From: a virus
Strand: one strand, 5' to 3'
DNA length: 20,964 bases
IMG/VR virus record: IMGVR_UViG_3300024261_000181
Coordinates: 1 to 20,964 of that record
The notes under the pieces were generated by a model. That model made no database searches, had not been told where the DNA came from, and saw nothing but the letters and a program-made list of their open reading frames with translations. Position numbers and translations under genes: made by a program. This document shows positions 1 through 18,690 of the stretch, piece after piece; positions within the stretch are counted from its first letter, which is position 1; each line of letters starts with the position of its first letter.

Positions 1-541
1 CAAATACTGCTGCACCTGAACCAGTTTCATCAGATAATACTCCTGCTAATTGTGCTGAAGTAGTTGCTGCAAATTGACTTAGAGGATTGGCTACAAGTGC
101 GTCTCCTGCTCCTACTGTGACTTCTGTTACTTGGTAGAATGTAGTTCCTCTTCTAATGAATAATACTCCTACTGTTTCTGATAGTGTTATGCTTCCTGCT
201 GAGGCTGTTATGAATGCTCCTTCTCCTGCCCCCGGAGATTGATTATGTCTTAATGTGATAGTATCTCCTGCGTCTGCATACAACCAAATTCTGTCGTTTG
301 CATTTGTGTTAGCATAAGTTACAAAGTCTAAATCGTCTGCTGTTCCTGATTCTGCTGCTACTATTGTTACTGTGTCTGTTACTGTTATTTCCCCGGATGT
401 GATTGTAATAATTGATTCTGTATTTCCCTCCATTCCTGTATCAAGAGGTGCTGCATTCCATTCATCTGTTCCTACCGGAGATGAACCATCATCTGCTACA
501 ACTACTGTAGTAGAGTGTTTACCTTTTGCTACTCGAGCCAT
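1..541 (-). CDS. Tail fibre-like virion protein, C-terminus cut by window edge
   Basis: The frame opens with ATG at 541 (MARVAKGKHSTT...) and stays open for 180 codons to the left edge, so only the N-terminal part is present. The visible protein is rich in Thr, Ser, Ala, Gly and Val with alternating beta-type segments (ITVTDTVTIVAAESG, ITLRHNQSPGAGE, ITLSETVGVLFIRRG), and it ends in the window with TSAQLAGVLSDETGSG, a segment common in phage tail fibres and other surface structural proteins. The start overlaps the stop of the preceding 50-aa gene in a TAATG, so translation is probably coupled. It lies at the distal end of the tail module, where receptor-binding proteins usually sit. A fibre or tail-tip role is inferred from composition and position; no catalytic motif is seen. 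Confidence 0.75.
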   Translation of the reverse strand, partial: MARVAKGKHSTTVVVADDGSSPVGTDEWNAAPLDTGMEGNTESIITITSGEITVTDTVTIVAAESGTADDLDFVTYANTNANDRIWLYADAGDTITLRHNQSPGAGEGAFITASAGSITLSETVGVLFIRRGTTFYQVTEVTVGAGDALVANPLSQFAATTSAQLAGVLSDETGSGAAVF

Positions 542-693
542 TATGCTGTCATCCTCTTAACTTTACCTGTTGACTCATTTCTTAATGTTACTCTAATGTC
601 TTCTTTGAATTGAATTTTCTCAGCAATACCATTACCACGGTTAATTTTCTCTAACATTTTAAATAAACCACCAAGCGTATTTTTAAAACGCAT
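541..693 (-). CDS. Small basic hypothetical protein (50 aa) in tail-tip operon
   Basis: A 50-codon frame starts at ATG 693 (MRFKNTLGGLFKMLEKINRG...) and ends with TAA at 543-541. The last A of this stop is the A of the next gene's ATG (TAATG). It starts 5 nt after the stop of the upstream 203-aa gene, so all three genes look like one operon. The protein is Lys/Arg-rich, with a short amphipathic N-terminal helix and a beta-like C-terminal half (IRVTLRNESTGKVKR). Small proteins of this size often precede tail fibre genes in tailed viruses, but no family is recognised and no function is proposed. It fills the gap between its neighbours exactly, which supports its being real. Confidence 0.6.
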   Translation of the reverse strand: MRFKNTLGGLFKMLEKINRGNGIAEKIQFKEDIRVTLRNESTGKVKRMTA

Positions 694-698
694 TAGGG

Positions 699-1310
699 TT
701 AAACTCCGTTAAAAGTATGATTAACGAATATCTTTAGTGTATCAGCAGCAGTCTTGTCAAAGGAAGAAATACTCCAGTGTGTCAAAACTTTGGTTGCTCC
801 AGATGGAGTTGCTCCACCAACGTGAACACATCCACCGATGATAGCAGTTTGGTTAAAGTCACCAGTAGTCCAACTTGTTAACCAAGTAACCACATCAGTT
901 CCTGCACCAGTGTTATCTGTATCACTGTCATTAGTTAAAGGATAAGTACCATCAATTGCTTTTCTTGAAGCAGTTACAGGGGTTGTAAGTTCGTTATATG
1001 TATCTGCTTTTGCTGGGGTTGCAGAGCCAGTTCTTAATTCTTGTCTGCCGGATGTACCATCGAAATCACTGGTTGGTGTTTCGGCTGCTGACATTTCAGC
1101 ATAGTATAAATCTCCGTCATTAGTTACAATATTATGAGTATAATTCCAAGTTTTGTCTAAAGTATCCATATTTTGTCTTACAATACAGATGTTATTTGAT
1201 GGGTCTAATTCGACACCTCTAGATAAGAAATTAGGCAAGTGGTCTTTCCAAGATTTATGTGCTTCTAGTCTTGCATCGACTGTATCAAAATTTGCTTCTT
1301 TAATTTCCAT
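699..1310 (-). CDS. Virion/tail-tip structural protein, unknown family (203 aa)
   Basis: ATG at 1310 is preceded by a TATA box at 1335-1344, fitting a leaderless transcript that would also carry the two genes downstream. The N-terminal 60 residues look helical (EANFDTVDARLEAHKSWKDH). The rest is Thr/Ser/Gly/Asp-rich beta-type sequence ending in DTLKIFVNHTFNGV, a hydrophobic beta strand at the extreme C-terminus like that of many small phage structural proteins. No enzymatic motif is visible. Position between the LamG tail protein and the fibre-like gene suggests a tail-tip or adhesin subunit; this is an inference from context. Confidence 0.7.
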   Translation of the reverse strand: MEIKEANFDTVDARLEAHKSWKDHLPNFLSRGVELDPSNNICIVRQNMDTLDKTWNYTHNIVTNDGDLYYAEMSAAETPTSDFDGTSGRQELRTGSATPAKADTYNELTTPVTASRKAIDGTYPLTNDSDTDNTGAGTDVVTWLTSWTTGDFNQTAIIGGCVHVGGATPSGATKVLTHWSISSFDKTAADTLKIFVNHTFNGV

Positions 1311-1351: not shown

Positions 1352-3511
1352 TCAAGCACCCTTGTATTTTGTAGTCGTAGATGAAACTGTATCTACATCA
1401 GATATAATACTTCCAAGTGTTTCATAATAATCGAATTCAAATTCTCCTACTTTTAATATTGTTACTGCTTCTGGATATCTCCATTCTATTGATTTTATTG
1501 CTAGGTCTGATGTTGTTCCTGCTATTGTTCCCCCCTCTTGGTCTATAAGAGTACGTGTAGTAAAGTTATATGCTTTTAATGGATTTGCTATGTATACTCC
1601 ATTTCCCTCTCTTACAGAATTAACCAGTGTTGGTATACGAACTGTGTAACTTTTGTCAACATCTTTAAATAATGCTATGAATCTTGTTGCTAATGTTTCT
1701 AATCCTTTATCACCTGCTATATCTGCCACTGACCTTATTTGTGGAACATTTAGTTTTTTAGCATAGACACCATATTCAGTCTTTGAATTTGTATCATCTT
1801 TCTTAGTTAATATATTAGTTGCTTCATATTCATATTCTATATCTAATGTGTCTACTCCTGTTAATGCTGTTCCTAATGTTAATGTTGCATTTTCTACGTC
1901 TATTTGATATTCTCCTGCCCCCGGAGAAGTTGTAGGGTCATCTCCAATTTGGTTTAATAATACTCCTGTATCATCTACTCTTAGTCCTCCAATTGGATTA
2001 TGTGTTAAATCAAATACTAATCCAGCAGCACCCTGTGAATCACCTACAGTCATTTGTGATTCATGAAATTTAATTGGTAAATTGGTACCAACTACTGTTA
2101 TGTCATTAATGAGTTTAGTATCATCCTTTTTATCTGATGCTATTGTTACTCCTCTCTCACCATGAATAAATTCTTGATTAACTACTAATGACCCTGCTGT
2201 TTCAAGTATCATCACCTTATGAGGATATGTAAAAAAATCTACATCCCCACCTTCTATAAAATTTAATATTCTGATTAATACCCCTAGTTTACCCTCTGCT
2301 ATAAATTTGTATACCGTTTCACTTGTTATATTACTAATTATTCTGTAATTTGTGTCTGCACTTCTTACCATATCATGTATTATATTATCAGCATCTTGAT
2401 TCTCAAATAGATTAACTGTTCTGGTTGTAAGTTCCCAAGTGGCTGCTGGGTCTGCCCATATTCCAGAAGCATTTTCCTTAGAGTCAACAAGAATATCTAG
2501 AAATAATTTACCTTTTCCTTTAACATGTAATGTCTTATGATTGATTTTATCGTCAACTTTCCATACGGTTCCATATAATTTCTGTGTGAAGAATTGTGGT
2601 CTTTCGCCATATATTTTTGCTGCATCACTGTCCGATAATGTGCCACCAGAATATACTCTGGTTTGTGCAACCCTTGCCTTAGTAAAACTACCTCCTGCTT
2701 TATCCTTACCAAATAATAGATTTTCTGTATTATCTAAATCTCCTGATACTGAAGATGTTGTCATTTCTGTTAATGCTATAGGTACATTTGTTCCCCCCAC
2801 AGATATATGTAATGTACCTGTATTATCCCTATGAACCCTTACTAAACTCCATGCTGTAAACGACCCATGATGGTCTCCAGAATTATTAACATATGTTATA
2901 TCACTACCGGTGACTCCAGCAGTTCTATCTCTTACTATTATTTCATCATCGGTTGTTCCTAATACTTTATAAAATATTTCTATTCCGTTACCAGCTCCAG
3001 CAGTATCCCACTTGCTAAAAAGACAGTGTTCACTGTTTGATGATTCACCAGTAATTCTTTTAAACCATATATAAATATCAAACTGTCCTGTAAAATCTAA
3101 TACATTTGGTGATAATGACGGATGAGCTTCGGTGGGATTAACATATTCTAAATAATCACTAGAGCCATCATAATTAACAACATATCTATTTTTAAATTTA
3201 CCTGTTGCACTTTCCAATACATATGTAGGGGTGCCTACTTCATTATCGAATATTTCAAATCCGGCTTCATCTCTGCCACTATGTTGAAAATTCCATATAC
3301 CTTTAAGACTTGAAAGGTCTGCGATGTCTTGTAAATATCTTAAATTGTATTTTTGTTCTGCTGTAAAGTCTCCTGATATTGATACCTGTGCCGTGTCCAC
3401 TGCTCTCTTTCCTTCTCTTTTTACTATTGATGATAGTATTGGTGCTTTTTCTTGTTTTTGTATTACCCCGGAACTGTCTACTGTTTCTATGAAAGCTAAT
3501 ACTTTAGGCAT
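1352..3511 (-). CDS. Tail hub/tip protein with inserted LamG-type lectin domain
   Basis: The start is taken as ATG 3511 (MPKVLAFIET...), not the in-frame GTG at 3547, because AGGAG stands about 10 nt upstream and the GTG would overlap the previous gene by 23 nt. The protein is 719 aa. Residues 1-50 are a hub-like beta region. About residues 62-305 match a concanavalin A-like/LamG fold: FDIYIWFKR, then LFSKWD, GNGIEIFYK, and the closing ARVAQTRVYSGGTLSD, the usual end strand of LamG_3 domains. From about 310 a tail-hub-like region resumes (LYGTVWKVDDKINHKTLHVKGKG) and continues to a beta-rich C-terminus that contains SPGAGE. The layout resembles a siphovirus baseplate hub carrying a sugar-binding insertion. 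Position after the tape measure gene supports this. Lectin activity is inferred. Confidence 0.75.
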   Translation of the reverse strand: MPKVLAFIETVDSSGVIQKQEKAPILSSIVKREGKRAVDTAQVSISGDFTAEQKYNLRYLQDIADLSSLKGIWNFQHSGRDEAGFEIFDNEVGTPTYVLESATGKFKNRYVVNYDGSSDYLEYVNPTEAHPSLSPNVLDFTGQFDIYIWFKRITGESSNSEHCLFSKWDTAGAGNGIEIFYKVLGTTDDEIIVRDRTAGVTGSDITYVNNSGDHHGSFTAWSLVRVHRDNTGTLHISVGGTNVPIALTEMTTSSVSGDLDNTENLLFGKDKAGGSFTKARVAQTRVYSGGTLSDSDAAKIYGERPQFFTQKLYGTVWKVDDKINHKTLHVKGKGKLFLDILVDSKENASGIWADPAATWELTTRTVNLFENQDADNIIHDMVRSADTNYRIISNITSETVYKFIAEGKLGVLIRILNFIEGGDVDFFTYPHKVMILETAGSLVVNQEFIHGERGVTIASDKKDDTKLINDITVVGTNLPIKFHESQMTVGDSQGAAGLVFDLTHNPIGGLRVDDTGVLLNQIGDDPTTSPGAGEYQIDVENATLTLGTALTGVDTLDIEYEYEATNILTKKDDTNSKTEYGVYAKKLNVPQIRSVADIAGDKGLETLATRFIALFKDVDKSYTVRIPTLVNSVREGNGVYIANPLKAYNFTTRTLIDQEGGTIAGTTSDLAIKSIEWRYPEAVTILKVGEFEFDYYETLGSIISDVDTVSSTTTKYKGA

Positions 3512-3524
3512 GTTAAATATTCTC

Positions 3525-4358
3525 CTATGGACTCGCTTGTACACCATCTGGCGTAGTAGCAGTTTCGTCAGTTAATGGGTATTTTGCACTCCAAATTCCT
3601 TTTCCATCAGTGCTGTTTGCCCTGATTCTTACCTGTATGTATTCATTTGCATCAAATGTGTCATCTGGATTAGTAAACGGTGAACTGGCTTGTCCATATT
3701 TCTTACTTCGTATTGCACCTGTAGTTGTGTTGAAGAATTCTAAATCATAATCTACTATTGCGTCAGCTCCTCCCTTATATGTTGGTGCAGTCCATGTTGA
3801 TGTTACTCTACCAGTTGCTCCACCGGGGTCAGTCAAACCAATACTTGTAGGTGGGAATGGTGTGTCTCCATCCATTGTTGTTACCACACTTCCCTCTAAG
3901 AATGTTAGTCTTGCCATTAATGTTATTGGTGAGCCAGAAGTAGTATCGAATGAAATATTATTTACAAATCCAAAGTATGTTAAATCATCATTTACTCCTG
4001 TTAATTCACTGTAGTTTATCTTTAACATGAATCTATGTTGTAATGATGACCCTTGCATGTTTTTTGATAGGTATAGTAGTTGTTCTCTTACTGTTTGTAC
4101 TGCTGAGTCTTGTTTTCCTCCCCCACCTAAATCTGTATCTGAGGCAACCAATGTCCATGATAGAGATATCTGTGTTGTATTACCTTCTACTTTTACTAAT
4201 ACATTCTCTTCCGAGGTTTCTTCTGGTAACGGCATTGGTGATATAGGTGTTCTTACATCTATATTTATTGAGTTGAAATTATTTATAGTATATGTGAATT
4301 GGTCGGAACCTGTTTCCTCATCAGTTTCAATTACTTTATGTAATGTTATAGTTACCAT
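3525..4358 (-). CDS. Tail/baseplate protein with C-terminal fibronectin type III domain
   Basis: A protein of 277 aa. Residues 1-165 are a beta-rich module (MVTITLHKVIETDEETG...) compatible with a distal-tail or baseplate protein. After a Pro-rich joint (TPFPPTS) residues about 168-268 look like one FN3 domain: GRVTSTWTAP (the Trp strand), DAIVDYDLEFFN, and EYIQVRIRANSTDGKGIWS (the Y/RxRAxNxxGxGxWS signature). FN3 domains are common, dispensable surface-binding additions on tail proteins. The ATG overlaps the tape measure stop in TAATG, so translation is likely coupled. Position directly after the tape measure gene is where distal tail proteins lie in siphoviruses; that assignment is from synteny. 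Confidence 0.75.
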   Translation of the reverse strand: MVTITLHKVIETDEETGSDQFTYTINNFNSINIDVRTPISPMPLPEETSEENVLVKVEGNTTQISLSWTLVASDTDLGGGGKQDSAVQTVREQLLYLSKNMQGSSLQHRFMLKINYSELTGVNDDLTYFGFVNNISFDTTSGSPITLMARLTFLEGSVVTTMDGDTPFPPTSIGLTDPGGATGRVTSTWTAPTYKGGADAIVDYDLEFFNTTTGAIRSKKYGQASSPFTNPDDTFDANEYIQVRIRANSTDGKGIWSAKYPLTDETATTPDGVQASP

Positions 4359-5782
4359 TATTTATTCAATTGTCCTTGAAGAGTTGATACTAAATGGTCT
4401 GCTGTTGATTTATCTGGTATACTAGCTATATTCACTGTTACGTTTGTTACTTTCTGACCTAATTCATTAACACCTAATTCTTTAAGTCTTTCCGGGTCAT
4501 TCATTCCGAGTGAATCTCTTAATCCTATTGTAAACCAATTTTTAAATTCGGTTGCTCCGGGAATTAAATCCACGAATTGGGCTGCGAGCATAGCTGTTCC
4601 ACCTGAACCACCCCTAATACCACCTAATCCTAATTTAGCGTTGAATCCAATTCCACCGCCACCTTGACCAAGTCCACCTAAGATTCCTCCTACTCCAGTT
4701 CCAGATGGAACTTTCGATGAAGGTAACTTAATTCCATTCTTTGCAGCCCATTTTTCATATGCTGATGGGTCATATTTTCCATTATTAAGCCAAGGAACAC
4801 TACCTCCTTTTGCAGATGGAGTGGGTGGTTTTGGAGACGGGGTTGAAGATGAGTTTGGTATTCCCGGTTTAGGTATATTAGTTGCAGCCCATTTTTTATA
4901 TGCCTCTGCATCATATTTACCATTCTTCATCCACGGGGTTGAAGTTGAGTTTGGTACTGGTATTTTTCCGGGGTTTGGTGTGGGTGGGGTTACTGTTTTT
5001 TGTATGAATTGTTTAACCCAATCTGGCATTGGTATTTTAATACTAGGTAATTTAATTTTGTCTAATTTAAGTACGCCTGTCATGAATTTATTAACTGATG
5101 TTCTAAATTTACTTGGGTTTGATTTTTTGAAAGAGTCTAATGTTTTTTGTAATTTATCTACTCTTTTGGAATGGGCACTTTCTATTTTTTTTTCTTCTAT
5201 GCCCATAATATTTCTTACTATTCTTCCATGAATTTTACCTACTACTTTTCCTGCTTTACCAGCACCTTTGATTGCTATTCCTCCACCAATAATTGTGGCT
5301 GCTGCTGTCGAAAGTTGTAATACAATACCGTTTTCTCCTGAAAGATTTTTTAGAAAACCTGTAGCCATATTACCTATAGTTGTTCCAAGGTTTTTCATAA
5401 CTGGATATACATCTTGATACCAAGGTATGATGAATTTCCTTAACATGTAAACCATTATAGGTCTTAACATGAATCCTATGAAATCTCCTATTGGTCTTAA
5501 TATTAACATTACTGAGAATTGCATTAACTTTGCCATTTGTTTTAACATTGGTGAGAAACTTATTAGTGATTTTAATGCTCCTACTACTAATCCCCCTGCC
5601 AATATTTTACCTAGGATTCCACTGGTATCATTTGCCTCCTTTATAGCCTGAACTTTTTTCATTTGTGCTATTAGTTTACTGTTTACACCCTTTGATTCTA
5701 AAATTGCTTTTTTATGCTGAGATAATGCATCTACTAATTTCCCTGCTTTTAGGTTAATATTTACAGATTCTTCCTCAGACAT
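4358..5782 (-). CDS. Tail tape measure protein (474 aa)
   Basis: The N-terminus is helical and charged. Residues about 55-150 hold several hydrophobic, membrane-like helices (ILAGGLVVGALKSLISFS, FSVMLILRPIGDFIGFML), and another Gly/Ala segment lies near 155-180 (AAATIIGGGIAIKGAGKAGK). A Lys-rich helical stretch follows, then a Pro/Ser-rich linker with two copies of a W-NGKYD-AY-KWAA-N motif, and a Gly-rich region before the C-terminus. Hydrophobic helices inside a long helical protein, directly after the G/G-T chaperone genes, are characteristic of tape measure proteins. At the usual ratio of about 0.15 nm per residue it would set a tail of roughly 70 nm, short for a siphovirus (inference). 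A TATA box lies about 26 nt before the ATG. Confidence 0.85.
   Translation of the reverse strand: MSEEESVNINLKAGKLVDALSQHKKAILESKGVNSKLIAQMKKVQAIKEANDTSGILGKILAGGLVVGALKSLISFSPMLKQMAKLMQFSVMLILRPIGDFIGFMLRPIMVYMLRKFIIPWYQDVYPVMKNLGTTIGNMATGFLKNLSGENGIVLQLSTAAATIIGGGIAIKGAGKAGKVVGKIHGRIVRNIMGIEEKKIESAHSKRVDKLQKTLDSFKKSNPSKFRTSVNKFMTGVLKLDKIKLPSIKIPMPDWVKQFIQKTVTPPTPNPGKIPVPNSTSTPWMKNGKYDAEAYKKWAATNIPKPGIPNSSSTPSPKPPTPSAKGGSVPWLNNGKYDPSAYEKWAAKNGIKLPSSKVPSGTGVGGILGGLGQGGGGIGFNAKLGLGGIRGGSGGTAMLAAQFVDLIPGATEFKNWFTIGLRDSLGMNDPERLKELGVNELGQKVTNVTVNIASIPDKSTADHLVSTLQGQLNK
4741..4938 (-). repeat. Two-copy W..NGKYD..AY.KWAA.N motif in the tape measure protein
   Basis: Copy 1 (about 4882-4938) encodes PWMKNGKYDAEAYKKWAATN and copy 2 (about 4741-4798) encodes PWLNNGKYDPSAYEKWAAKN. 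Both are flanked by Pro/Ser-rich linkers. The copies diverge at the DNA level, so the duplication is old or the motif is under selection as a structural unit. Confidence 0.8.
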
Positions 5783-5802
5783 ATATAATTAATTCCTTAC
5801 CT

Positions 5803-5813
5803 GATTAATAAAC
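5803..5813 (-). promoter_or_regulatory. TATA box of the tape measure gene
   Basis: The minus strand reads GTTTATTAATC, centred about 26 nt upstream of the ATG at 5782, and it overlaps the last codons of the G-T chaperone frame, which ends at 5805. Confidence 0.6.
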
Positions 5814-6056
5814 TTTCCTTCCATCAGGCATGTTTATTGTTTGGTCACCTATAGGCATAGAATCCTCTTTGCCTTGACTTTTATTCTGCTCTATAATTAA
5901 AAGCATCATTTTTCTAAGATACTCTATTTCTTGTCTTTGGACTTTTTCTTTATCCCAACCGAAGTTGTTTGCACAGAAGGCGTAGACTGAGTAGGTTGCT
6001 CTTTCGAGTTTATCTCTCCAACGTAAGTCTCCATCCAATCCACCAGATACTTGTCT
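5805..6056 (-). CDS. T domain of tail assembly chaperone, expressed as G-T by -1 frameshift
   Basis: This frame is -1 relative to the 136-aa gene and follows it with a long overlap. From 6056 it gives 83 residues: RQVSGGLDGDLRWRDKLERA, then a helical region with AFCANNFGWDKEKVQRQEIE, LRKMMLLIIEQ and a tail ending DGRKVY. The segment FGWDKEKVQRQEIEYL resembles the short helical T region of siphovirus G-T chaperones (FGW-pattern followed by an acidic-hydrophobic helix). The fusion would be 93 residues of G plus these 83, 176 aa. A TTG at 6038 could in principle start the frame alone, but the slippery site upstream, the direction of the shift and the position before the tape measure gene all favour a frameshift product. 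Confidence 0.75.
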   Translation of the reverse strand, partial: RQVSGGLDGDLRWRDKLERATYSVYAFCANNFGWDKEKVQRQEIEYLRKMMLLIIEQNKSQGKEDSMPIGDQTINMPDGRKVY

Positions 6057-6334
6057 AAAGGGAATTTCTTCGATACCTCCTGAACTATCGGTTGGAAAAC
6101 GGCATAATCTAATTGGTTAATAACAGGTTCGCTTATTCTGAATGGTGCTTTAACTAAAGCTCTTAATACTAAATTCATTCTGTATTTGGCTAGTGATATT
6201 TTTGGTTCTCCTGTAGTTTCATCTATAGATGTGCATTTTTCTAATAGTGATTCTACCTCCCCAAAATTTAAAGAATCTTTGAATTCAAATTCTTCCTCTT
6301 TGCCTTCATAAGAAAAGTTCCTTGTATAAGTCAT
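5924..6334 (-). CDS. Tail assembly chaperone G (136 aa)
   Basis: The frame starts at ATG 6334 (MTYTRNFSYEGKEEEFEFKD...) with a TATA box about 26 nt upstream. The N-terminal 30 residues are a beta-type segment, then come helices (FGEVESLLEKCTS, MNLVLRALVKAPF, FQPIVQEVSKKFPLD) and a polar, Lys-rich tail (GIKKKSKDKK). It lies between the tail tube and tape measure genes, exactly where lambda-type G/G-T chaperones lie, and it has a -1 overlapping frame. The chaperone coats the tape measure protein during tail assembly and is not part of the finished virion (known for the family). The assignment rests on synteny and frameshift architecture more than on sequence identity. Confidence 0.8.
   Translation of the reverse strand: MTYTRNFSYEGKEEEFEFKDSLNFGEVESLLEKCTSIDETTGEPKISLAKYRMNLVLRALVKAPFRISEPVINQLDYAVFQPIVQEVSKKFPLDKYLVDWMETYVGEINSKEQPTQSTPSVQTTSVGIKKKSKDKK
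6056..6062 (-). other. Programmed -1 frameshift site C CCT TTA with upstream Shine-Dalgarno
   Basis: Read on the minus strand in the G frame the codons are TTC CCT TTA GAC, giving the canonical X XXY YYZ heptamer C CCT TTA. Both tRNAs re-pair in CCC TTT, after which the T frame continues (AGA CAA GTA). A perfect AGGAGG lies at 6081-6076, 13 nt upstream of the heptamer, similar to the stimulatory Shine-Dalgarno of E. coli dnaX. No clear downstream hairpin was seen by eye. Confidence 0.8.
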
Positions 6335-6354
6335 TAAATATTTAATAAATTACT

Positions 6355-6364
6355 AGTATTAAAG
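6355..6364 (-). promoter_or_regulatory. TATA box of the G/G-T chaperone gene
   Basis: The minus strand reads CTTTAATACT, centred about 26 nt upstream of ATG 6334, in the short gap after the tail tube stop codon (6372). Confidence 0.55.
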
Positions 6365-6371
6365 TCTTGCC

Positions 6372-7397
6372 CTAAGAACCTGCTTTCTCTGCTGTATCTT
6401 CATTCTCTGCTACAATCACACAACTTTTAGCTTGCCATGTTATTTCTTCAAATACAGGTTCAACTGGCTCAATTCCAGATACGTTATGTGATTCAATACC
6501 AATATCTGATAATGTTATTGTAATCGTTCTTTCATTTGTAGATGTTAATCCATTGGTGAATACCATTTCAATTGATGCTTGTTCTCTATCTACAGTTGTG
6601 GCAGTATCTTTACCAATCTGAGCAAGTAAGTCATCTAAATATGTGTGGTCTACCATTGAGGCTTGGAATCTACCAGTTATTTCAAATAGTTGTCTGTATG
6701 ATGATACGGCTTGTGCATCATCTAATCCATACAAAAGATTTGCTCCCTGTGTAAATGTAATGTCTGCACTTTGTACCTGTGCTACAGTTCCACCGTTATA
6801 TTTTAATTCAGCATGAGCAAATGTGTAAGGGAAGTTTGTAGTTGCTGTAAGATTAGATGCTTTTGCATAATTATCTGTATGTGTTGAACCTTGTGTTACT
6901 GTATCAGTTGTTAATAATGCTTCTTTACCATATTGGAAATCACATGAACAGTTTACTAAATCATCTACATTTGCTGAAATATTAAGAGAGTTTAATATAC
7001 TACCTTCCATTCTTCTTGTTACTGAACCAGTTTCTCCTTCAAAACCAACTTCAATCATTGCTGACCTTACTGCTGTTTCTCCTGAAGATATATCATATGT
7101 GAATGTATTAGGTGTTGGTGCTGCACTATATGTTGGTGCTCCAAATAATAAACCAAACATCCACGGTTCAGATAATACAAAGTCTATTCCTATAGAACCT
7201 GTCTGTTTACCATATGCATAGTCTGTTGGCTCTATACTGCATAATTGGGCTAATGTTTTCTTTGAGTTATTAAGTGACCAACTTGATACTTTTTGTTGTA
7301 AACCAAATGCTTTAAAATTAGGTGTCGATAATTCTCCTCCTCCAAATGTAGTCTCAAAATCATATTGAAGATACGAATTAGCACCTGTACGAACCAT
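6372..7397 (-). CDS. Major tail tube protein (341 aa)
   Basis: The protein is almost wholly beta-type, with regularly spaced Thr/Val/Ile strands and an N-terminal segment (TGANSYLQYDFETTFGG, then GLQQKVSSWSLNNSKKTL) like that of phage tail tube proteins that build hexameric rings. Other typical pieces are GSIGIDFVLSEPWMFGLLFG, MIEVGFEGETGSVTRRMEG, and the C-terminal FEEITWQAKSCVIVAENE. It stands directly before the tail chaperone and tape measure genes and after a terminator-like protein, which is the standard tail order. A strong TATA box (CTTTATAAG) about 27 nt upstream of the ATG gives it its own promoter, sensible for an abundant virion protein. No sheath gene follows, arguing for a non-contractile tail. 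Confidence 0.8.
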   Translation of the reverse strand: MVRTGANSYLQYDFETTFGGGELSTPNFKAFGLQQKVSSWSLNNSKKTLAQLCSIEPTDYAYGKQTGSIGIDFVLSEPWMFGLLFGAPTYSAAPTPNTFTYDISSGETAVRSAMIEVGFEGETGSVTRRMEGSILNSLNISANVDDLVNCSCDFQYGKEALLTTDTVTQGSTHTDNYAKASNLTATTNFPYTFAHAELKYNGGTVAQVQSADITFTQGANLLYGLDDAQAVSSYRQLFEITGRFQASMVDHTYLDDLLAQIGKDTATTVDREQASIEMVFTNGLTSTNERTITITLSDIGIESHNVSGIEPVEPVFEEITWQAKSCVIVAENEDTAEKAGS

Positions 7398-7418
7398 ATG
7401 TATGATTCTTCATTCTGG

Positions 7419-7428
7419 CTTATAAAGT
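7419..7428 (-). promoter_or_regulatory. TATA box of the tail tube gene
   Basis: The minus strand reads ACTTTATAAG, centred about 27 nt upstream of ATG 7397. It lies just before the end (7433) of the upstream tail terminator-like gene. Confidence 0.75.
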
Positions 7429-7432
7429 TTCC

Positions 7433-7858
7433 TTATGGGTCTAATATTCTGTAGGTGACTTCCATTACGTGTCTATACATATTTCTATAATTATGTGTCA
7501 GGTTTCGGCTTAGAGTAATTCTTAGGTCTGTGTAGCCTGTTCTTCTTACTTGTGCTTTTAATATTTTGTCTATTTGGTCTACTACTGCTCTGTGTCTTGT
7601 TTCTGTTCCATATCCCCGGATATCTATGACTGCAATAGGATGATGTAAGTGATTTGTGCCATAAAGACTAAAATAATCAACCTTCTCAGAACCGGGTGTT
7701 ATTACTACCACATCCTGAGTATCATCAATTATACCTACAGCTTTCTCTTCCCAGTTTACAGTGAATTTAGGCTTTGGAACATCATCATTATCATAATTCC
7801 ATTCAGTATTCATCATGTTGATTATATCGTCAATTGCATCATATGACCCTACACCCAT
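7433..7858 (-). CDS. Tail terminator/tail completion-like protein (141 aa)
   Basis: The ATG at 7858 overlaps the stop of the preceding gene in TGATG, so translation is probably coupled. The layout fits the small alpha/beta fold of tail terminator proteins: a first helix (YDAIDDIINMMNTEWN), a VVVITPGSEKVDYFSLYG strand-turn, a strand HPIAVIDIRGYGTETRHR, a helix AVVDQIDKILKAQVRR, and the final strands DLRITLSRNLTHNY and HVMEVTYRILDP. The final basic-to-beta segment ending in a conserved-looking VTYRILDP is typical of such proteins. Position between neck and tail tube genes supports a role in capping the tail and joining it to the head. The assignment is by fold pattern and synteny. Confidence 0.65.
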   Translation of the reverse strand: MGVGSYDAIDDIINMMNTEWNYDNDDVPKPKFTVNWEEKAVGIIDDTQDVVVITPGSEKVDYFSLYGTNHLHHPIAVIDIRGYGTETRHRAVVDQIDKILKAQVRRTGYTDLRITLSRNLTHNYRNMYRHVMEVTYRILDP

Positions 7859-8607
7859 CAGTTTGCACTTCCTTTGTTCAATGTGTGTGTTTTACTTCCA
7901 TAGTTGATATCTGTGGTGTTTTTATATACTGTTATACTTGTAGGATGTATTCCAACTTCTGACATCTTACTTCTTAATTTCCATGATAGGAATTCTAATG
8001 AGCGATTTACCTGTTCTGGTGTTTTCTTTTTATATTGTATTCCTGATGATGATACTCCTCCTGTTTTTAATTTTCTCCCCCCTTTATTATACCAATAATG
8101 ATTATATACTTTCATTTTTAAGTTTGGTCTCTTTCGTAGATATATTCTTTTCATCCAGTCCAAGAAATCTCTTCCACCCTCATTATCTCTCCCAGAGAAT
8201 ATATTTCCATCTCTTGGTGTAAGTGTTGGGTTTTTGATTAGTTCTGGTTCATCTATTATGTCAGGCTCTGGTGTTGCGTTATAATCATGAGTATCCACAA
8301 CTACTGCCCCCGGTGGAACACCAAATTTCTCTATATTATATCCTACAGATTCAGTTACTTTTGATTCTTTTGCTACTACATTTGTTAAAGAGTCAACTAT
8401 AGTTTGCGGTTTATCTGAGTCCATATCTGTTGTGTCTCCTATACCTTCTGCTGCTGCATATAGTTTTTCTATTAGGTCTCTTCTTCTTCTTCTTCTTTGT
8501 CCTTCTTGTCTTGGTGTTGTAGCTTCCCCACGCCTTTCAACTATACTGTGATTATATTTGTCAACTTCCATTTCTATGACCCTATCTATATCTGTTAGTC
8601 TTGCCAT
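7858..8607 (-). CDS. Neck/head-tail joining protein candidate (249 aa)
   Basis: The ATG at 8607 overlaps the upstream connector stop in TAATG. Residues 1-60 are helical and strongly basic, including six consecutive Arg encoded by six AGA codons. The middle is acidic and Pro-rich (NATPEPDIIDEPELIKNP). The C-terminal 110 residues hold an aromatic-basic core (FLDWMKRIYLRKRPNLKMKV, YNHYWYNKGGRKLK), a helix (TPEQVNRSLEFLSWKLRSKM) and a final strand (SITVYKNTTDINYG). Helices and strands of this sort, between connector and tail terminator genes, suggest a head-closure or neck protein (HK97 gp10-like position). No family is recognised with certainty. Confidence 0.55.
   Translation of the reverse strand: MARLTDIDRVIEMEVDKYNHSIVERRGEATTPRQEGQRRRRRRDLIEKLYAAAEGIGDTTDMDSDKPQTIVDSLTNVVAKESKVTESVGYNIEKFGVPPGAVVVDTHDYNATPEPDIIDEPELIKNPTLTPRDGNIFSGRDNEGGRDFLDWMKRIYLRKRPNLKMKVYNHYWYNKGGRKLKTGGVSSSGIQYKKKTPEQVNRSLEFLSWKLRSKMSEVGIHPTSITVYKNTTDINYGSKTHTLNKGSAN
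8479..8496 (-). repeat. (AGA)6 trinucleotide repeat coding for six Arg
   Basis: Six perfect tandem AGA codons on the minus strand encode R6 in the N-terminal third of the neck protein. Such tracts can change length by slippage without loss of frame. Confidence 0.9.
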
Positions 8608-9272
8608 TAGGCAATCGGAATAATCTCTTGACGTTGGTGTATGGTTCTATCTATATCTTCTTTCCATTGGTTTATTGAATCTCCCCAAGACCATCCACCT
8701 GAACCACCTACAGGCAATATGTCTGCTCTAAATGATGTTGATAGTAATTCTACTGCTACCATTTTTACACATGCCTCTTCAATGTCTAACGGAACAGTTG
8801 TGTCACCATAACGATAAGTAATTCTCATTCTGTTCTTTCTCATTACTGTAAAGATAAATCCTCTCATGTAAAGTCTTCCATATTCGGGGTCAAGTACAAA
8901 CCCACCATCAGCATTATCTGTAATATCATTATAGTTTGCAGACCCACCAGTATTCCCTCCAGAAGCACCATCGTATACTTCAAGTGAATCTCCTGAACTA
9001 GATACTAGTCCACCGTTTGCGTCTGTTCTGATTTTTCTATGTCGGAGGAATAAAGGAGTACCCCAACCAAATTCATATATAATAGGCATATCATGGACTT
9101 CAGTAGTGGCAGTTGCTTCACGCCATGCGTGACCAGTTCTTCTGTCTATTTCATCTTCTTTTCTGTTGATTAGTTTAATTACTTGTGCTTTGTTTGGTGT
9201 GGTTGTGTCTGTTATATCTACCCTCAAAAAATCTGCAACATCTTGCACAGTACAGTAGACAGGAGTAACCAT
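8607..9272 (-). CDS. Head-tail connector/adaptor protein (221 aa)
   Basis: The N-terminus (YCTVQDVADFLRVDITD, then KAQVIKLINRKEDEIDRRTG) is the typical opening of gp6-like head-tail connectors: a helix, a short loop, then a helix with ExxIDxxTGxxW, here EIDRRTGHAW. A beta-rich insertion follows, with FLRHRKIRT, a Gly/Ser/Asn loop, and LDPEYGRLYMRG, the characteristic strand LD.e.G.l......R.......YRYG. The end is a helix with PLDIEEACVKMVAVELL, the usual closing helix. This combination, after the capsid genes and before tail genes, makes a connector assignment good. It would sit below the portal ring. A weak TATA box is about 27 nt upstream. Confidence 0.8.
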   Translation of the reverse strand: MVTPVYCTVQDVADFLRVDITDTTTPNKAQVIKLINRKEDEIDRRTGHAWREATATTEVHDMPIIYEFGWGTPLFLRHRKIRTDANGGLVSSSGDSLEVYDGASGGNTGGSANYNDITDNADGGFVLDPEYGRLYMRGFIFTVMRKNRMRITYRYGDTTVPLDIEEACVKMVAVELLSTSFRADILPVGGSGGWSWGDSINQWKEDIDRTIHQRQEIIPIA

Positions 9273-9294
9273 ATGCTTAAATATGTGCTCCTAT

Positions 9295-9303
9295 CTTTTA
9301 AAG
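9295..9303 (-). promoter_or_regulatory. TATA-like box of the connector gene
   Basis: The minus strand reads CTTTAAAAG, centred about 27 nt upstream of ATG 9272. It is less canonical than its neighbours but keeps the same spacing. Confidence 0.5.
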
Positions 9304-9337
9304 TTTGCTCTAGTAACTAAACATGTATTACCTTACT

Positions 9338-9421
9338 TCAAGCTGATTTTATTGCTTCTTGCCCGGCAGAACTTGATGCTAGTTCATTAAATTTGCCTGT
9401 ATCTAAAGTGCCTAAACCCAT
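9338..9421 (-). CDS. Candidate micro-ORF (27 aa) abutting the upstream virion gene
   Basis: A 27-codon frame starts at ATG 9421, immediately after the TAG of the 138-aa gene (TAGATG), and ends in TGA at 9340-9338. It encodes MGLGTLDTGKFNELASSS followed by a short Ala/Glu/Lys helix. The exact abutment and the otherwise empty 150-nt gap argue that it may be translated by termination-reinitiation. There is no Shine-Dalgarno of note. It may also be chance or the remnant of a longer gene. Confidence 0.4.
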   Translation of the reverse strand: MGLGTLDTGKFNELASSSAGQEAIKSA

Positions 9422-9838
9422 CTAAGATTCGCCACGGTGATATATGTCTAATACACCTTGACTTGACCCAACGGCTGCTTTGATTCTAACAACACATCTA
9501 TTATAAGGATTGTCTAAAGTCTCTATTACAGGTGCTGCGGCTGCTGTTAATGTCGTTTCTGCTTTTATTTGTACCCAGCCATTTCCATAATCTGTGGCAT
9601 CTGTACCGGTCATATCAGTGTGGTCTGGTAACCAATCTGCTGTTGCCCAAATTTCATATTTTAAATCATTTGTAATACAATATAATGTAAATACTGAAGT
9701 TCTGACATTTCTACAGTCAATATCTAAACATGTTGCATAAGCGTCAGTTGATGTTAATGCTAAATTTCTATTATGTAGCCCAACTATTGAACTTCCATCA
9801 TTTGTGGTTTTCTCTCTACGTTGGTCTTCCTGAGCCAT
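9422..9838 (-). CDS. Small beta-rich virion protein (138 aa), possible capsid decoration
   Basis: ATG 9838 has a strong TATA box about 26 nt upstream and an oligo-T terminator before that, so the gene has its own transcription unit. After a polar N-terminus (MAQEDQRREKTTNDGSS) the protein is made of Thr/Val-rich strands (TSVFTLYCITNDLKYEIWAT, GNGWVQIKAETTLTAAAA, RCVVRIKAAVGSSQGVLDIY). It ends in a charged HRGES. Several Cys (4) are present without a zinc-type spacing. It looks like a compact virion surface or head-tail protein, given its place between capsid and connector genes. The specific role is unknown. Confidence 0.65.
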   Translation of the reverse strand: MAQEDQRREKTTNDGSSIVGLHNRNLALTSTDAYATCLDIDCRNVRTSVFTLYCITNDLKYEIWATADWLPDHTDMTGTDATDYGNGWVQIKAETTLTAAAAPVIETLDNPYNRCVVRIKAAVGSSQGVLDIYHRGES

Positions 9839-9858
9839 ACGTAATTATGTATAGTCTA

Positions 9859-9868
9859 CCTTATAAAG
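9859..9868 (-). promoter_or_regulatory. TATA box of the 138-aa virion gene
   Basis: The minus strand reads CTTTATAAGG, identical to the element at 1335-1344, centred about 26 nt upstream of ATG 9838. Confidence 0.75.
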
Positions 9869-9871
9869 TTA

Positions 9872-9901
9872 TTGGAAAAAAAGAAAAAAGGGTGTAAAAA
9901 A
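9872..9901 (-). terminator. Oligo-T archaeal-type terminator after the 122-aa gene
   Basis: Just downstream of the TAG at 9902 the minus strand has three T tracts (T6, T6, T7) separated by short breaks, with no evident hairpin. Tandem U-tracts are the usual intrinsic terminator in archaea. Confidence 0.7.
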
Positions 9902-10270
9902 CTAAAATCCTACTACTCGTAGTTTACAGGTCATAGTGATAGAGTCGGCATCATCTGCTTCATCGAGGACTGCACTTGCAGTTCCTGATTCATATAGTTT
10001 TAGCTTCCCTGTTGCTGCTGCACCTAGGGCTGCTGGAACGTATTGGGGTATATTGCCTGTTGAAACCTCTAGAACTGTTACTGCAATAATTGTAGTGAGT
10101 CTGCCGTCTAGGGTTAAATCTAGGACGTTTCCTGCAATATCGTAATCTTCTGATGTATAGGTTACGTCTACAATTGCTGTTTTGAGTTTGGATAATAGTT
10201 CTGCTTGTATGGATAGTGTTTTCCCGGTTACTGATTGGTAATCGGAATTCACTGCGATTGCGAGAGTCAT
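9902..10270 (-). CDS. Small virion protein (122 aa), decoration/cement protein candidate
   Basis: The gene follows the major capsid protein directly and has its own TATA box and flanking oligo-T terminators, the mark of an abundantly and separately expressed protein. The sequence is a run of beta strands (KTAIVDVTYTSEDYDIAGNV, LTTIIAVTVLEVSTGN, DSITMTCKLRVVGF) with an Ala/Gly-rich loop (VPAALGAAATGKLKL). No catalytic motif, signal peptide or membrane segment is seen. Its size, fold type and position match capsid cement or decoration proteins of tailed viruses, but this is inferred from context and composition. Confidence 0.65.
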   Translation of the reverse strand: MTLAIAVNSDYQSVTGKTLSIQAELLSKLKTAIVDVTYTSEDYDIAGNVLDLTLDGRLTTIIAVTVLEVSTGNIPQYVPAALGAAATGKLKLYESGTASAVLDEADDADSITMTCKLRVVGF

Positions 10271-10289
10271 TAAAATATGTGGAAAGTCA

Positions 10290-10300
10290 TTATATATAAA
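10290..10300 (-). promoter_or_regulatory. TATA box of the 122-aa virion gene
   Basis: The minus strand reads CTTTATATATA, centred about 26 nt upstream of ATG 10270. Confidence 0.75.
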
Positions 10301-10302
10301 GA

Positions 10303-10320
10303 TTTAAAAAAATGAAAAAG
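10303..10320 (-). terminator. Oligo-T terminator after the major capsid gene
   Basis: About 16 nt after the capsid stop codon the minus strand reads CTTTTTCATTTTTTTAAA, two T tracts (T5, T7) without a hairpin, directly before the next TATA box. Confidence 0.65.
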
Positions 10321-10335
10321 TGGGAATTGGTTCGA

Positions 10336-11562
10336 CTAAAGTTTAATGTCTCTAATCTTGCCTTGTGATTTAAAGTGTCTACAGACAGTTTCTCCCATTG
10401 TTCTGAACAATGCTTTCTCAACAAGTGTGTTACTGTTGATAAATGGATAACCCGGAGTACGTCTTGTGGCTTCGTAATACTCGGTTGGAATTGCGACTTG
10501 AATTCCTAATCTAGGATAACCAAATCCTTCTGCATCAGAAGTATCTAATGCAAATAGTCTACCGACTTCAGTTCCTCCAGTAGTTGGAGCATCTTTGGTT
10601 GGTACAAATGGTATGCCGTAGAGTGAGTTTACGTGGATACCTACACCAGTTCCATCGAATGTTTTGATTCCGTTAACATCGACTTGTACAATCTTCTCAC
10701 CGTATGGGTTTGCGACCCTGACTTGTGGAAGGTATAAGCCTTGAATTTCGGAGTAAACTTCGTGGCTTCCTAAGAATACATTTGGGTCTTTACCAGCAGC
10801 AATTCTGATTTTTCTGAGGTGAGTTCTAATTACATCATCAGTTAAGACACCATCAGTACCTAAAGTACCGGATGCTGATTCAACTGTTGCATCGTAAGTA
10901 GTTCCACTATCTCTGTCAATTGCAGAGGTAGTTGCTTTCCAAGGGTCATAATAGTCTGTGTATGTACCGCCTTGTGAGTCTTCTTCAGCATCGGAAGAAA
11001 TAATTCTATCCAATGATTCAAAGTCATTAGTACCGGCAAAGTTTGCACTTGCAGCAGCAGCGTCAGTTGCTACATCATTCAAGAGAGCTTGATTGATGAG
11101 TTCTTTGTGCTGTACAGCCATATACAATCTTAATGAACCGAGTCCACCCCAAATATCGTCTTTACTGTGATTTGAGAGCCATTCCATAACTTCAGATGTA
11201 CTGAAAGTTAGTGCCATAGTCTTTGGTCTAACATCAATCTCAGCAATTGTAGGCTTGATTGTGTCAGGAATTACACCACCTTCTGCGACACCACCTTTAG
11301 AGGTGTTGCCTTGTGCTGTATCGACTGTTGGTCTTGCGGAAATAACCCTCCATCCAGATTTATCCCAAGGATATTTTGGTAAGATACCGAAAGCGTTTGC
11401 TTCAAGATTTAATTGTGCCCATGCATATGCACCAAAGACTGCGTTGAAAACGCCTCCTGTTGATGTTAACATTGGGTTGTTGGTCTTGGAGATTAAGCTT
11501 CGGCTAAATCCACCGTAGTATAGAGACTCTAATTCGTCCATAGTTCTAATGCCGTTCACCAT
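10336..11562 (-). CDS. Major capsid protein, HK97 fold (408 aa)
   Basis: The protein follows the protease and scaffold genes. It has the usual order of HK97-fold elements: a helical N-arm, an E-loop-like segment with Gly/Ile and a beta return (GGVAEGGVIPDTIKPTIAEID, interrupted in the middle by a turn), the KTMALTFSTSEVMEWLS strand-helix, a spine-like helix (LYMAVQHKELINQALLND), and a P-domain/A-domain C-terminus (DDVIRTHLRKIRIAAGKDPN, FLGSHEVYSEI, YGIPFVPTKDAP). The start overlaps the scaffold stop in TAATG, coupling the two. A 90-residue Ser/Thr/Asp-rich stretch in the middle (about 190-240) may be an added surface domain. Assignment rests on layout and synteny. Confidence 0.8.
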   Translation of the reverse strand: MVNGIRTMDELESLYYGGFSRSLISKTNNPMLTSTGGVFNAVFGAYAWAQLNLEANAFGILPKYPWDKSGWRVISARPTVDTAQGNTSKGGVAEGGVIPDTIKPTIAEIDVRPKTMALTFSTSEVMEWLSNHSKDDIWGGLGSLRLYMAVQHKELINQALLNDVATDAAAASANFAGTNDFESLDRIISSDAEEDSQGGTYTDYYDPWKATTSAIDRDSGTTYDATVESASGTLGTDGVLTDDVIRTHLRKIRIAAGKDPNVFLGSHEVYSEIQGLYLPQVRVANPYGEKIVQVDVNGIKTFDGTGVGIHVNSLYGIPFVPTKDAPTTGGTEVGRLFALDTSDAEGFGYPRLGIQVAIPTEYYEATRRTPGYPFINSNTLVEKALFRTMGETVCRHFKSQGKIRDIKL

Positions 11563-12149
11563 TATAAAGTACCCTCCTTATCGTATTTTTCAGCAATGTC
11601 CAATAGACTTTTTCCTACCATTGACAAGTTCTCAAAACCTGCATTTCTGCATTTTGAGAGAATTTGGTATGGCAAGAGGTCTTCTTGTGCATTTTGTGCT
11701 TTTGACACGTTTGTGGTTGGTCTTTCGACTGGTGATGTTACATGAGATGAGATAGATTTCTCTTGCATCTTAAGGTCACCTTTATCTCCTTCTGGTTTAT
11801 CTTCGACTTTTCCATTGGCATCTTGGATACCGGATTGGTCACCAGTTGGGTAAGGGTCTTTTGGTGCAGTGACTTTGTCACCAATATCTTCGCTATCAGC
11901 ATTGCCTTTTGGGCTTTGTGGTAGGTCAGTAGGTGTCTCCATTGCTTTCTCCATCTTGTCTTGTCTTGCGACAATTGATTTGAGTGCTTCTAGGATTGCC
12001 TTATTGGTTTCTTCTTTGTCATCATCGTCAGAAGCTTTCACTTCTGGTTTGATTTCGTCTTTCTCGTCCTCTGCTTTTTTCTCGAAGGGATTTTCTTTTT
12101 CCTCTTCGTCAGCTTTGGCTATGGTTTTTATGTCATCTAATGTGGTCAT
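11562..12149 (-). CDS. Acidic scaffold-like protein (195 aa)
   Basis: The sequence is highly charged and low in hydrophobic residues, with acidic-basic runs at the N-terminus (DDIKTIAKADEEEKENPFEK) and a central coiled-coil-like helix (NKAILEALKSIVARQDKMEK). A long Pro/Ser/Asp/Lys disordered region follows, then a C-terminal helix of mixed character (YQILSKCRNAGFENLSMVGK). This composition and its place between the prohead protease and the major capsid protein are typical of scaffolding proteins, which are cut away during maturation. Translation into the capsid gene is coupled through TAATG. It has no enzyme motif. A shorter internal-core function cannot be excluded. Confidence 0.7.
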   Translation of the reverse strand: MTTLDDIKTIAKADEEEKENPFEKKAEDEKDEIKPEVKASDDDDKEETNKAILEALKSIVARQDKMEKAMETPTDLPQSPKGNADSEDIGDKVTAPKDPYPTGDQSGIQDANGKVEDKPEGDKGDLKMQEKSISSHVTSPVERPTTNVSKAQNAQEDLLPYQILSKCRNAGFENLSMVGKSLLDIAEKYDKEGTL

Positions 12150-12164
12150 GTTGTTATAATAATT

Positions 12165-12186
12165 CTATATAAAGGGGTTTATAAAG
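12165..12186 (-). promoter_or_regulatory. Double TATA element before scaffold-capsid operon
   Basis: Two boxes, CTTTATAAAC (12186-12177) and CTTTATATAG (12174-12165), precede ATG 12149 by about 32 and 21 nt. They lie over the last codons of the protease gene. This would allow strong transcription of scaffold and capsid genes independent of the protease. Confidence 0.65.
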
Positions 12187-13946
12187 ATTATGTTTCCTAC
12201 GCCATTTACTAAATGTCCTTCAGGAGATACTTCTACATTGTCACCATACTGTGCTATTCCTTCTGCTGATGTTGAAAACTTGTTCATTTCCATTACCCAT
12301 TCTTCTTCTGCTTTGTTTTTAATTGCTTTTAGTATAGGCATTGGTTCTTCTTTGTAGTTTTCTATATAGTCTTTTATTGCTAGGTGTAGTTCTGAGTTGT
12401 TGTCTGTGTTTTTATTTTCCTCCCAATATTTTCTTACTCCTTTCTCAAATTCACATTCTTTCTTTGCAATAGGGTCTGTAGGCTTGTTTCCTAGTTTGGT
12501 TGGGTCTCCTAGTTTCTCTGGAGTTATTGCGTCTGCGTCTTTCTTTTTCTCGTCTTTAGGGTCTGATTCTGATGATGTTACTTGGTTGCTTCCCCCGGTT
12601 CCGTTTACTGACGTGTTATATGCACCTAACCCTCTTGGGTTTTCAGTGCCTGTACCGACTATATCTTTCTGAATTATGATTGAACATCCACATGATTTCT
12701 TAAAGTATTGTCTATCTCCATCAGGTTTTGCTACTTCGTCTACACCTGTTTCAGATAGGTCTGGTTTTTCAGAACAACTTGCTTTTTCATCACATTGATT
12801 ACCTACACCTGTTGAACCCATTACATGGTCTGCTTTATGTTTTGGTGCATTAGGATTCATTCCATGTTCATTATTATGACGTGAGCCACAGTATGCTTCA
12901 GCGTCTCTAATGTCATCTTTATTTCCTTCTCCAGAAATACAAGATTCAGTTGAACCATATTCTTTTTGACCGGCATGAACTTTAGTATCTTTATCTACGT
13001 GTTGCTGAATTGAGCCACAATATCCACCGGCATTGTGTACCGATGGGTCTTTCTTTGCGTGTGCCTCACAGGCTGCAAATTCCATTTTTCCATATTTAGT
13101 AGGTAATGGTTTAGTCTTATCGTCTGGTCTCTTTAAATCAGTTTCAGGAAAGTCTTCCTCGTCTTGTCCGTAAATATCTTTTCCTGCTTCATACCAAATA
13201 GTACCATTAGAATCAATCATATGTATTTTTAATTTTTCTTCTCCTTCTTCAGTTGCTTCTGGGTTATAACCTTTGGCTTCACCAATATGAGTTTCAACTT
13301 CTTTAGGAACATCGTCTTGGTCTATTGGAGTACCCATATCTGCTTTTCTTACTTCTGCGTTGATATAACAACTTGTACCATCACATTTGGCTTTTAATTC
13401 TTCTCCATCTTTTTCTACATGGACTGCCTTTGCTAATGGGTTTACATCTGTAATTAATGCGAATGCAACTGCTGGGTCTTCACATACTGCCACTTCATAT
13501 ATCTCTAGGTCTTTTAATCTGTATGCCATCGTTCCATCTGATTGTGGTACTGGTATTCTGTTTGCTTTTGTTGCCCCTCCGAATGATAATCCTTTGTAAG
13601 TACCATCAACTATTTGTTTCCAAATGAAATCATCTAATGCTGTGTTTGAATGTATTTTACCTAAAATTTTAATTGCTGGGAGTTTCTCACCATTTTTAGC
13701 CTGAAGTGTTACTTTTTCAAAATTGATACCTCTGCCTACAATACGATTTGAATGAGTGTCTGACATTGGTGCATTTCTCTCCATCCATATTGGAAGAGCC
13801 TTGTATAGTTCATCTATATCTGTAATCTCTCCTTGACGGTCTTTAATCTCTACTGATAATATGCCTTCAAAGAAACGGTCTGTATTATCTTCTTTAATAA
13901 CTAGTTGTTTTGTGACAAAATTGGACACAGTTATCTCGTCTGTCAT
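12165..13946 (-). CDS. Prohead maturation protease with long Cys/His-rich extension (593 aa)
   Basis: Residues 1-180 match the caudoviral prohead protease (S78/XkdF-like) plan: a beta start (FFEGILSVEIKDRQGEITD), a candidate catalytic His in SDTHSNRIVGRG (His65), a candidate catalytic Ser in YKGLSFGG (Ser121), and the closing LKDLEIYEVAVCEDPAV. These enzymes cut scaffold and capsid protein in the prohead. The remaining about 410 residues are unusual for the family, which normally totals 200-300 aa. They are acidic and disordered-looking, with two copies of a C-(16)-YCG type motif (FAACEA...GGYCGSIQQH and ESCISG...EAYCGSRH), two pairs of Cys near 385-391 and 419-421, and many His. The C-terminus (about 470-560) has Lys/Glu helices. 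A fused scaffold or core segment is possible. It has its own TATA box. Confidence 0.75.
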   Translation of the reverse strand: MTDEITVSNFVTKQLVIKEDNTDRFFEGILSVEIKDRQGEITDIDELYKALPIWMERNAPMSDTHSNRIVGRGINFEKVTLQAKNGEKLPAIKILGKIHSNTALDDFIWKQIVDGTYKGLSFGGATKANRIPVPQSDGTMAYRLKDLEIYEVAVCEDPAVAFALITDVNPLAKAVHVEKDGEELKAKCDGTSCYINAEVRKADMGTPIDQDDVPKEVETHIGEAKGYNPEATEEGEEKLKIHMIDSNGTIWYEAGKDIYGQDEEDFPETDLKRPDDKTKPLPTKYGKMEFAACEAHAKKDPSVHNAGGYCGSIQQHVDKDTKVHAGQKEYGSTESCISGEGNKDDIRDAEAYCGSRHNNEHGMNPNAPKHKADHVMGSTGVGNQCDEKASCSEKPDLSETGVDEVAKPDGDRQYFKKSCGCSIIIQKDIVGTGTENPRGLGAYNTSVNGTGGSNQVTSSESDPKDEKKKDADAITPEKLGDPTKLGNKPTDPIAKKECEFEKGVRKYWEENKNTDNNSELHLAIKDYIENYKEEPMPILKAIKNKAEEEWVMEMNKFSTSAEGIAQYGDNVEVSPEGHLVNGVGNIIFINPFI

Positions 13947-13968
13947 GTATATCTAGTTGACGCTAATG

Positions 13969-13979
13969 CTTTATAAATA
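13969..13979 (-). promoter_or_regulatory. TATA box of the prohead protease gene
   Basis: The minus strand reads TATTTATAAAG, centred about 28 nt upstream of ATG 13946, just after the oligo-T terminator. Confidence 0.7.
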
Positions 13980-13987
13980 TTCTTAAT

Positions 13988-13999
13988 AATAAAAAAAGA
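13988..13999 (-). terminator. Oligo-T terminator after the two-TM protein gene
   Basis: Four nt after the stop at 14003 the minus strand reads CTTTTTTTATTA, a T7 tract without a hairpin, directly before the next TATA box. Confidence 0.6.
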
Positions 14000-18684: not shown

Positions 18685-18690
18685 ATGATA

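Follow-up and report, generated by a model that had tools for sequence, protein, structure and literature searches.

A LamG-like jelly roll inserted into the predicted tail baseplate hub of a virus from an archaeal tailed-virus lineage

Introduction

A tail hub bearing a presumed carbohydrate-binding domain is already known. The hub gp44 of HFTV1 (PDB 9h4p chain BD), from an archaeal siphovirus-like tail, carries such a predicted domain, and adhesion to glycans has been proposed for it (PMC12494034). HVTV-1 (Druskaviridae) has gp133 as its probable hub, and its LamG domain is the product of a separate gene, gp137. Inserted domains occur in the siphovirus tip hubs lambda gpJ (an inserted FN3, FNIII-A) and T5 pb3 (the plug), and these differ from the hub described here in the hub domain, in the inserted fold and in their roles (PMC10721106). 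In the baseplate of roseophage R4C, the Dit, megatron, hub and fibre proteins of the tail tip bear several predicted carbohydrate-binding accessories, none of them termed LamG in the accessible part of that report (PMC10276861). LamG/ConA-type modules are also predicted to bind host glycans in Thermococcales viruses; as far as the accessible text goes, mainly spindle-shaped viruses were analysed there and the lectins do not lie within a tail hub (PMC12934983). Further literature is cited as PMC8651126.

Here we describe a variant in which a LamG domain is inserted within the hub. It is encoded in the IMG/VR record IMGVR_UViG_3300024261_000181, and the whole stretch of DNA that was analysed, 20,964 bases, is called the window. 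To our knowledge, no receptor has been described for the tailed viruses of abundant marine archaea. Searches of titles and abstract openings, in a literature that mostly excludes subscription journals, gave no description of LamG inside an archaeal tail hub.

Results

The virus and its likely host

The window carries a block of head and tail genes on the minus strand. When 50,697 phage records were searched, the capsid and portal, which are related to those of HVTV-1, each gave 8 matches at E <= 1e-3, all of them to haloarchaeal tailed viruses. This supports membership of the virus in an archaeal-virus lineage and bears out the archaeal setting assumed in the first-pass annotation of this DNA.

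AmoC is encoded in one of 19 related records (E 1.4e-14). The AmoC-like ORF (L095 1483-2061, on the contig of L059) adjoins that relative's copy of the window's capsid gene. None of 15 related records, all of which may be fragments, matched the family B DNA polymerase (PF00136), an enzyme listed in the ICTV profile of Apasviridae (PMC12999244) for those magroviruses; the Magrovirales are viruses of Poseidoniales. Since scans of genome contigs with the capsid and with the hub gave no relative, the host assignment rests on AmoC and the capsid kinship. Ammonia-oxidising archaea (Marine Group I) are the likeliest hosts of the group and, by extension from the group, the presumed hosts of the window virus itself.

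Two other genes of the window were also noted. A matrixin-like metalloprotease (Peptidase_M10, E 8.9e-18) at 19296-20006 on the plus strand could target the host surface or serve lysis, while the portal (16726-18684, minus strand) has, by reading, paired CxxC motifs resembling zinc ribbons, with a weak A2L_zn_ribbon match (E 0.53).

A hub fold interrupted by a LamG domain

The hub gene and its parts are as follows.

1352..3511, minus strand: tail baseplate hub gene with internal LamG, 719 aa (open frame, choice of start, structure model and fold match)
3326..3511, minus strand: hub part 1, residues 1-62, where the hub fold begins (aligned with intact hubs from model residue 1-2 on)
2600..3325, minus strand: LamG/ConA-like jelly roll, residues 63-304 (family matches in relatives, fold comparison)
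1352..2599, minus strand: hub part 2, residues 305-719, with the rest of the fold and a helix at the C-terminus (fold alignment, LamG-free profile)

The open frame spans 1352-3547 on the minus strand. Translation most likely starts from the ATG at 3511, because in six close relatives an in-frame stop lies shortly 5' of the equivalent methionine. In part 1, G34, R36, D39 and D62 are invariant across 29 aligned hub proteins. The gene follows the tube, chaperone and tape measure genes and precedes fibre-like genes (chaperone, tape measure and fibre being named by position or reading).

An AlphaFold2 model, made from an alignment that included 28 relatives, had a pLDDT of 79.2 and a pTM of 0.77. 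We observed that its best fold match was the HFTV1 hub gp44 (Z 26.0, rmsd 3.0, 324 aligned residues; second-look aligner), model 1..715 aligning with chain residues 23..370, and that the hubs of Milano, 7-7-1, MuSo2 and Mu matched at Z 19.8-21.1 from model residue 1-2 to 690-691. Since these intact hubs align across both flanks at once, residues 1-62 and 305-691 form a single fold in the model. By this fold the gene product is a tail baseplate hub of the T4 gp27 / Mu gp44 / HFTV1 gp44 type. The first-pass annotation had read hub-like sequence on either side of the LamG domain and named structure prediction as the check; the intact hubs cover the model from 1-2 to 690-715, and the contrary outcome, flanks without a continuous hub fold, was not obtained.

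The earlier placement of a complete LamG jelly roll at 2590-3330 agrees with the fold comparison, in which residues 62/64-304 (window 2600-3328) match jelly-roll domains at Z about 19.5-22. These include domain 4 of the arabinanase AbnA (Z 19.9; an entry with bound sugar) and the jelly rolls of clostridial-toxin binding regions (Z about 20-22), the latter a likeness of fold only. The ganglioside site of clostridial toxins sits in a different subdomain. Pfam Laminin_G_3 matched the window protein weakly (17.2 bits against a cut-off of 27.6, residues 132-294); it was found at E <= 0.1 in 18 of the 29 aligned hubs, the window included, with a best value of 4e-20, and exceeded the cut-off in some relatives, e.g. 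G007, G015 and G019. As fold matches are no proof of sugar binding, we treat the LamG domain as a putative binder.

The insertion site is empty in HFTV1

In the model, LamG occupies a loop in the first domain of the hub fold. In HFTV1 gp44, whose predicted binding domain is C-terminal (PMC12494034), a short loop joins the two strands that flank this site, by reading. The aligned HFTV1 span, residues 23..370, is shorter than an insert of about 240 residues allows, so it has no room for one. The hub model, the fold alignments and this loop confirm the first-pass view that the domain was inserted and not appended.

Profile comparisons were less uniform. The LamG-free profile spans the HFTV1 site in a whole-core comparison (E 7e-6, probability 84%), though the per-residue confidence is low at that point; under another setting the probability was 20% and the N-terminal part was placed differently. 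A search with the same profile matched HFTV1 gp44 in the C-terminal part only (residues 265-369, E 2e-5), and an N-terminal-only profile of 62 columns matched neither HVTV-1 nor HFTV1. HVTV-1 gp133 has, by reading, a contiguous hairpin at the site, with a weak match to the hub profile (E 0.008) and a Pfam YQBQ match below the cut-off (E 2.7e-5), and the whole-core profile comparison with HVTV-1 was not significant (probability <= 6%). The empty site is thus indicated by the structure, the loop reading and the whole-core HFTV1 comparison, and HVTV-1 gp133 is the less secure example. The separate HVTV-1 gene gp137 lies in the tail region and matches Laminin_G_3 at E 1.7e-15. By reading, gp133 (L094 24242-25669) seemingly has another extra segment (about residues 120-285) at a different position.

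LamG is present in every long hub of the family

Relatives were gathered from matches to the tube and to the capsid, for the latter from the best 80 of 340; the window hub as query gave no match in the phage records or in a first scan of viral contigs. We observed LamG in all 29 non-identical hubs of at least 500 aa (the window and 28 other loci, none contained in another, near-identical ones kept), a count that is partly circular, since most of these sequences also went into the LamG profile. Six of the 29, however, were picked up with peptide patterns that lie outside LamG; they are absent from that profile, and LamG is present in them too. Relatives with an insertion-free hub, which the first-pass annotation had suggested looking for, were found outside the family (HFTV1 and, less securely, HVTV-1), while none was seen among the 29 long hubs. 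Every locus that matched the FN3 gene next to the hub and extended more than 300 bases beyond it also had a hub match; the three FN3-matching loci without one stop 17, 186 and 257 bases past that gene. Its presence in all 29 long hubs marks the insertion as old. In one relative, L010 (5438-8086), two LamG domains stand in tandem at the same insertion site.

Among the viral-model matches were also proteins of 798 and 935 aa named 'Concanavalin A-like lectin', and because of these the arrangement may exist in bacterial phages too.

LamG diverges with the hub core

Divergence was compared over the 20 of the 29 aligned hubs that exceed 640 aa. Mean identity was 29.5% for LamG and 29.8% for the C-terminal core, LamG was the more similar part in 91 of 190 pairs, and the two divergences correlated at 0.94. 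A family-wide faster evolution of LamG was therefore dropped as an idea. Since LamG and the core diverge together over long distances, free domain swapping, one of the points that the first-pass annotation had named for comparison, is not the rule, and LamG is fixed in the family.

Fourteen hub pairs exceeded 70% identity, of which we quote five that share no hub. Two had an excess of differences in LamG: L007/L008, with 39 of 250 LamG residues differing against 5 of 486 elsewhere (Fisher p 1.2e-14), and L036/L041, with 60 of 223 against 59 of 441 (p 2.7e-5). LamG was the more conserved part in L002/L005 and neutral in L015/L113 and L019/L116. Two further pairs (L117/L118 and L003/L005) were near-identical and uninformative, and the remaining seven recombine the L002, L003, L005, L007 and L008 hubs: three with L007 showed the excess (p 1.2e-5, 1.2e-5 and 0.016), L002/L003 the opposite (0.005), and three were neutral. 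In the LamG of the two diverged pairs dS also rose, from 0.05-0.14 to about 0.30. As dS is raised along with dN, imported alleles account for these pairs without selection, and positive selection on LamG was dropped.

In nucleotide bins of L007/L008, LamG forms a dip (88%, 74%) between stretches at 94-100%, and two bins 5' of the tail genes stand at 76%; in L036/L041 the dip is wider and extends from LamG into the C-terminal hub. L002/L005 dips over the FN3 gene (72-82%) and again in the C-terminal hub (83%). The tape measure gene dips deeper than LamG (68% and 65% against 74% and 81% in L007/L008 and L036/L041, 250-base bins). A tape measure protein is an unlikely receptor contact.

The tail genes around the hub change as a block

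The surrounding features are as follows.

2..541, minus strand: first part of a fibre-like gene that runs off the window end (99% identity with L116)
3525..4358, minus strand: conserved tail protein ending in an FN3 domain, next to the hub gene on its upstream side (Pfam fn3 in homologues)
4358..5782, minus strand: probable tape measure protein (position between tail chaperone and hub block)
6372..7397, minus strand: tail tube protein (Pfam Phage_tube_2, E 3.3e-21)
1355..8607, minus strand: seven-gene tail cassette, from gene 7858-8607 through the hub (near-identical viruses differ here across the whole block)

The neighbouring FN3 domain named in the first-pass annotation was recovered through homologues: Pfam fn3 matched seven of nine aligned homologues and not the window's own protein. 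Its structure model (pLDDT 56.3) was too weak for use; by gene order the protein takes the position of HFTV1 gp41 and may likewise be a baseplate-tail connector. The tape measure candidate gave no significant family match; by reading, it contains a motif around PW-x-x-NGKYD, repeated twice. At the chaperone position (5805-6334, minus strand) two overlapping ORFs resemble the joined chaperone pair of HVTV-1, and a programmed frameshift is possible. In L116, the fibre-like gene encodes 392 aa; after it comes another fibre-like ORF, at least 1314 aa long, with a LamG-like stretch, by reading, at the end of the available sequence.

Over 8449-20964 the virus L019 shares 99.4% identity with the window, and over 1109-1354 it shares 99.6%. 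Inside the cassette identity falls to 29% for the hub, 28% for the FN3 protein and 36% for the tube, with the small gene 7433-7858 at 84%. The left junction is the hub stop codon. The right one is the start of gene 7858-8607, where identity rises from 40-87% to 100% between 8600 and 8630, and it is alike in L019, L016 and L116. L116, from another sample, has both flanks on one contig, with 98.9% identity over 1-1354 and a hub only 29% identical. L017, from yet another sample, tracks the window across the right junction (99.94% over 7402-12592), so this junction is not an assembly error. The seven genes, among them those from the tube to the hub, change together, while the fibre-like gene keeps its start.

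Discussion

The hub fold, the insertion, its presence in every long relative examined and the empty site in HFTV1 are the computed part of this work. From these we propose that the protein is the baseplate hub, presumably trimeric, of a siphovirus-like archaeal virus, in which a LamG jelly roll replaces a short loop of the first domain. The hub core would close the tail tube and may dock on the adjoining FN3 protein. The jelly roll would project outward from the core and most likely bind host-surface glycans as an adhesion element of the tail tip, probably jointly with the downstream fibres and not alone. We hold this explanation as a whole to be moderately probable.

The first-pass annotation had named LamG, along with the adjacent FN3 domain, as a good candidate for the receptor-binding element, a role that is plausible only. 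In its favour are the fold match to the sugar-binding arabinanase domain, the predicted carbohydrate-binding domain of the HFTV1 hub (PMC12494034) and the local divergence peak in two of five close pairs; against it, LamG is neutral in two pairs and conserved in one, it is fixed in the family, and in L116 a long fibre-like ORF with a LamG-like end lies downstream.

In a different reading, LamG is an architectural part of the hub (a spacer, a trimer contact or a dock for a fibre) and host recognition falls mainly to the downstream fibres. LamG is found in 29 of 29 long hubs and co-diverges with the C-terminal core, as would suit this reading, and L116 keeps the fibre-like flank of the window beside a very different hub. 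The long fibre-like ORFs downstream, one with a LamG-like end, and the LamG matches that 8 of 20 related records have away from the hub also point this way, as does lambda gpJ, whose inserted FN3 contributes to gpI contacts inside the tip (PMC10721106). However, the local divergence of LamG in two close pairs and the tandem domains of L010 fit an exposed, replaceable module better, and L007, among the closest hubs, has by reading no fibre-like ORF directly 3' of the hub on a contig that is a fragment. We consider an architectural LamG a serious but minority possibility.

That the jelly roll is an enzyme domain that cleaves glycans instead of binding them is very improbable. The ConA fold is found in glucanases as well, and enzymes are common on baseplates. 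However, a motif of the E-x-D-x(1,2)-E type, which we take to be that of GH16, occurs in one of 29 LamG regions, and the Pfam families matched by several members are LamG and not glycoside hydrolases. An artefact of gene fusion or misassembly, conceivable in a metagenomic record, is refuted by the relatives: at other loci, 28 further non-identical long hubs have this hub-LamG-hub order in one open frame.

A bolder reading, which we think rather doubtful, is that in marine archaeal tailed viruses the hub carries the primary lectin. LamG would then be a fixed receptor-binding module built into the hub, and its alleles would be replaced locally, or with the whole cassette at gene boundaries, so as to change the host strain without altering capsid and fibres. 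In one published survey, Laminin_G_3 is listed with the auxiliary metabolic genes of magroviruses, in four groups (PMC10160649). Such counts deserve checking, because in the viruses studied here Laminin_G_3 is a virion tail domain. Related archaeal tails present a presumed binding domain in three layouts: C-terminal in the hub of HFTV1, in a separate gene in HVTV-1, and inserted in the hub of the window. A clearly delimited domain at a known position in the hub offers a specific, expressible receptor-binding candidate.
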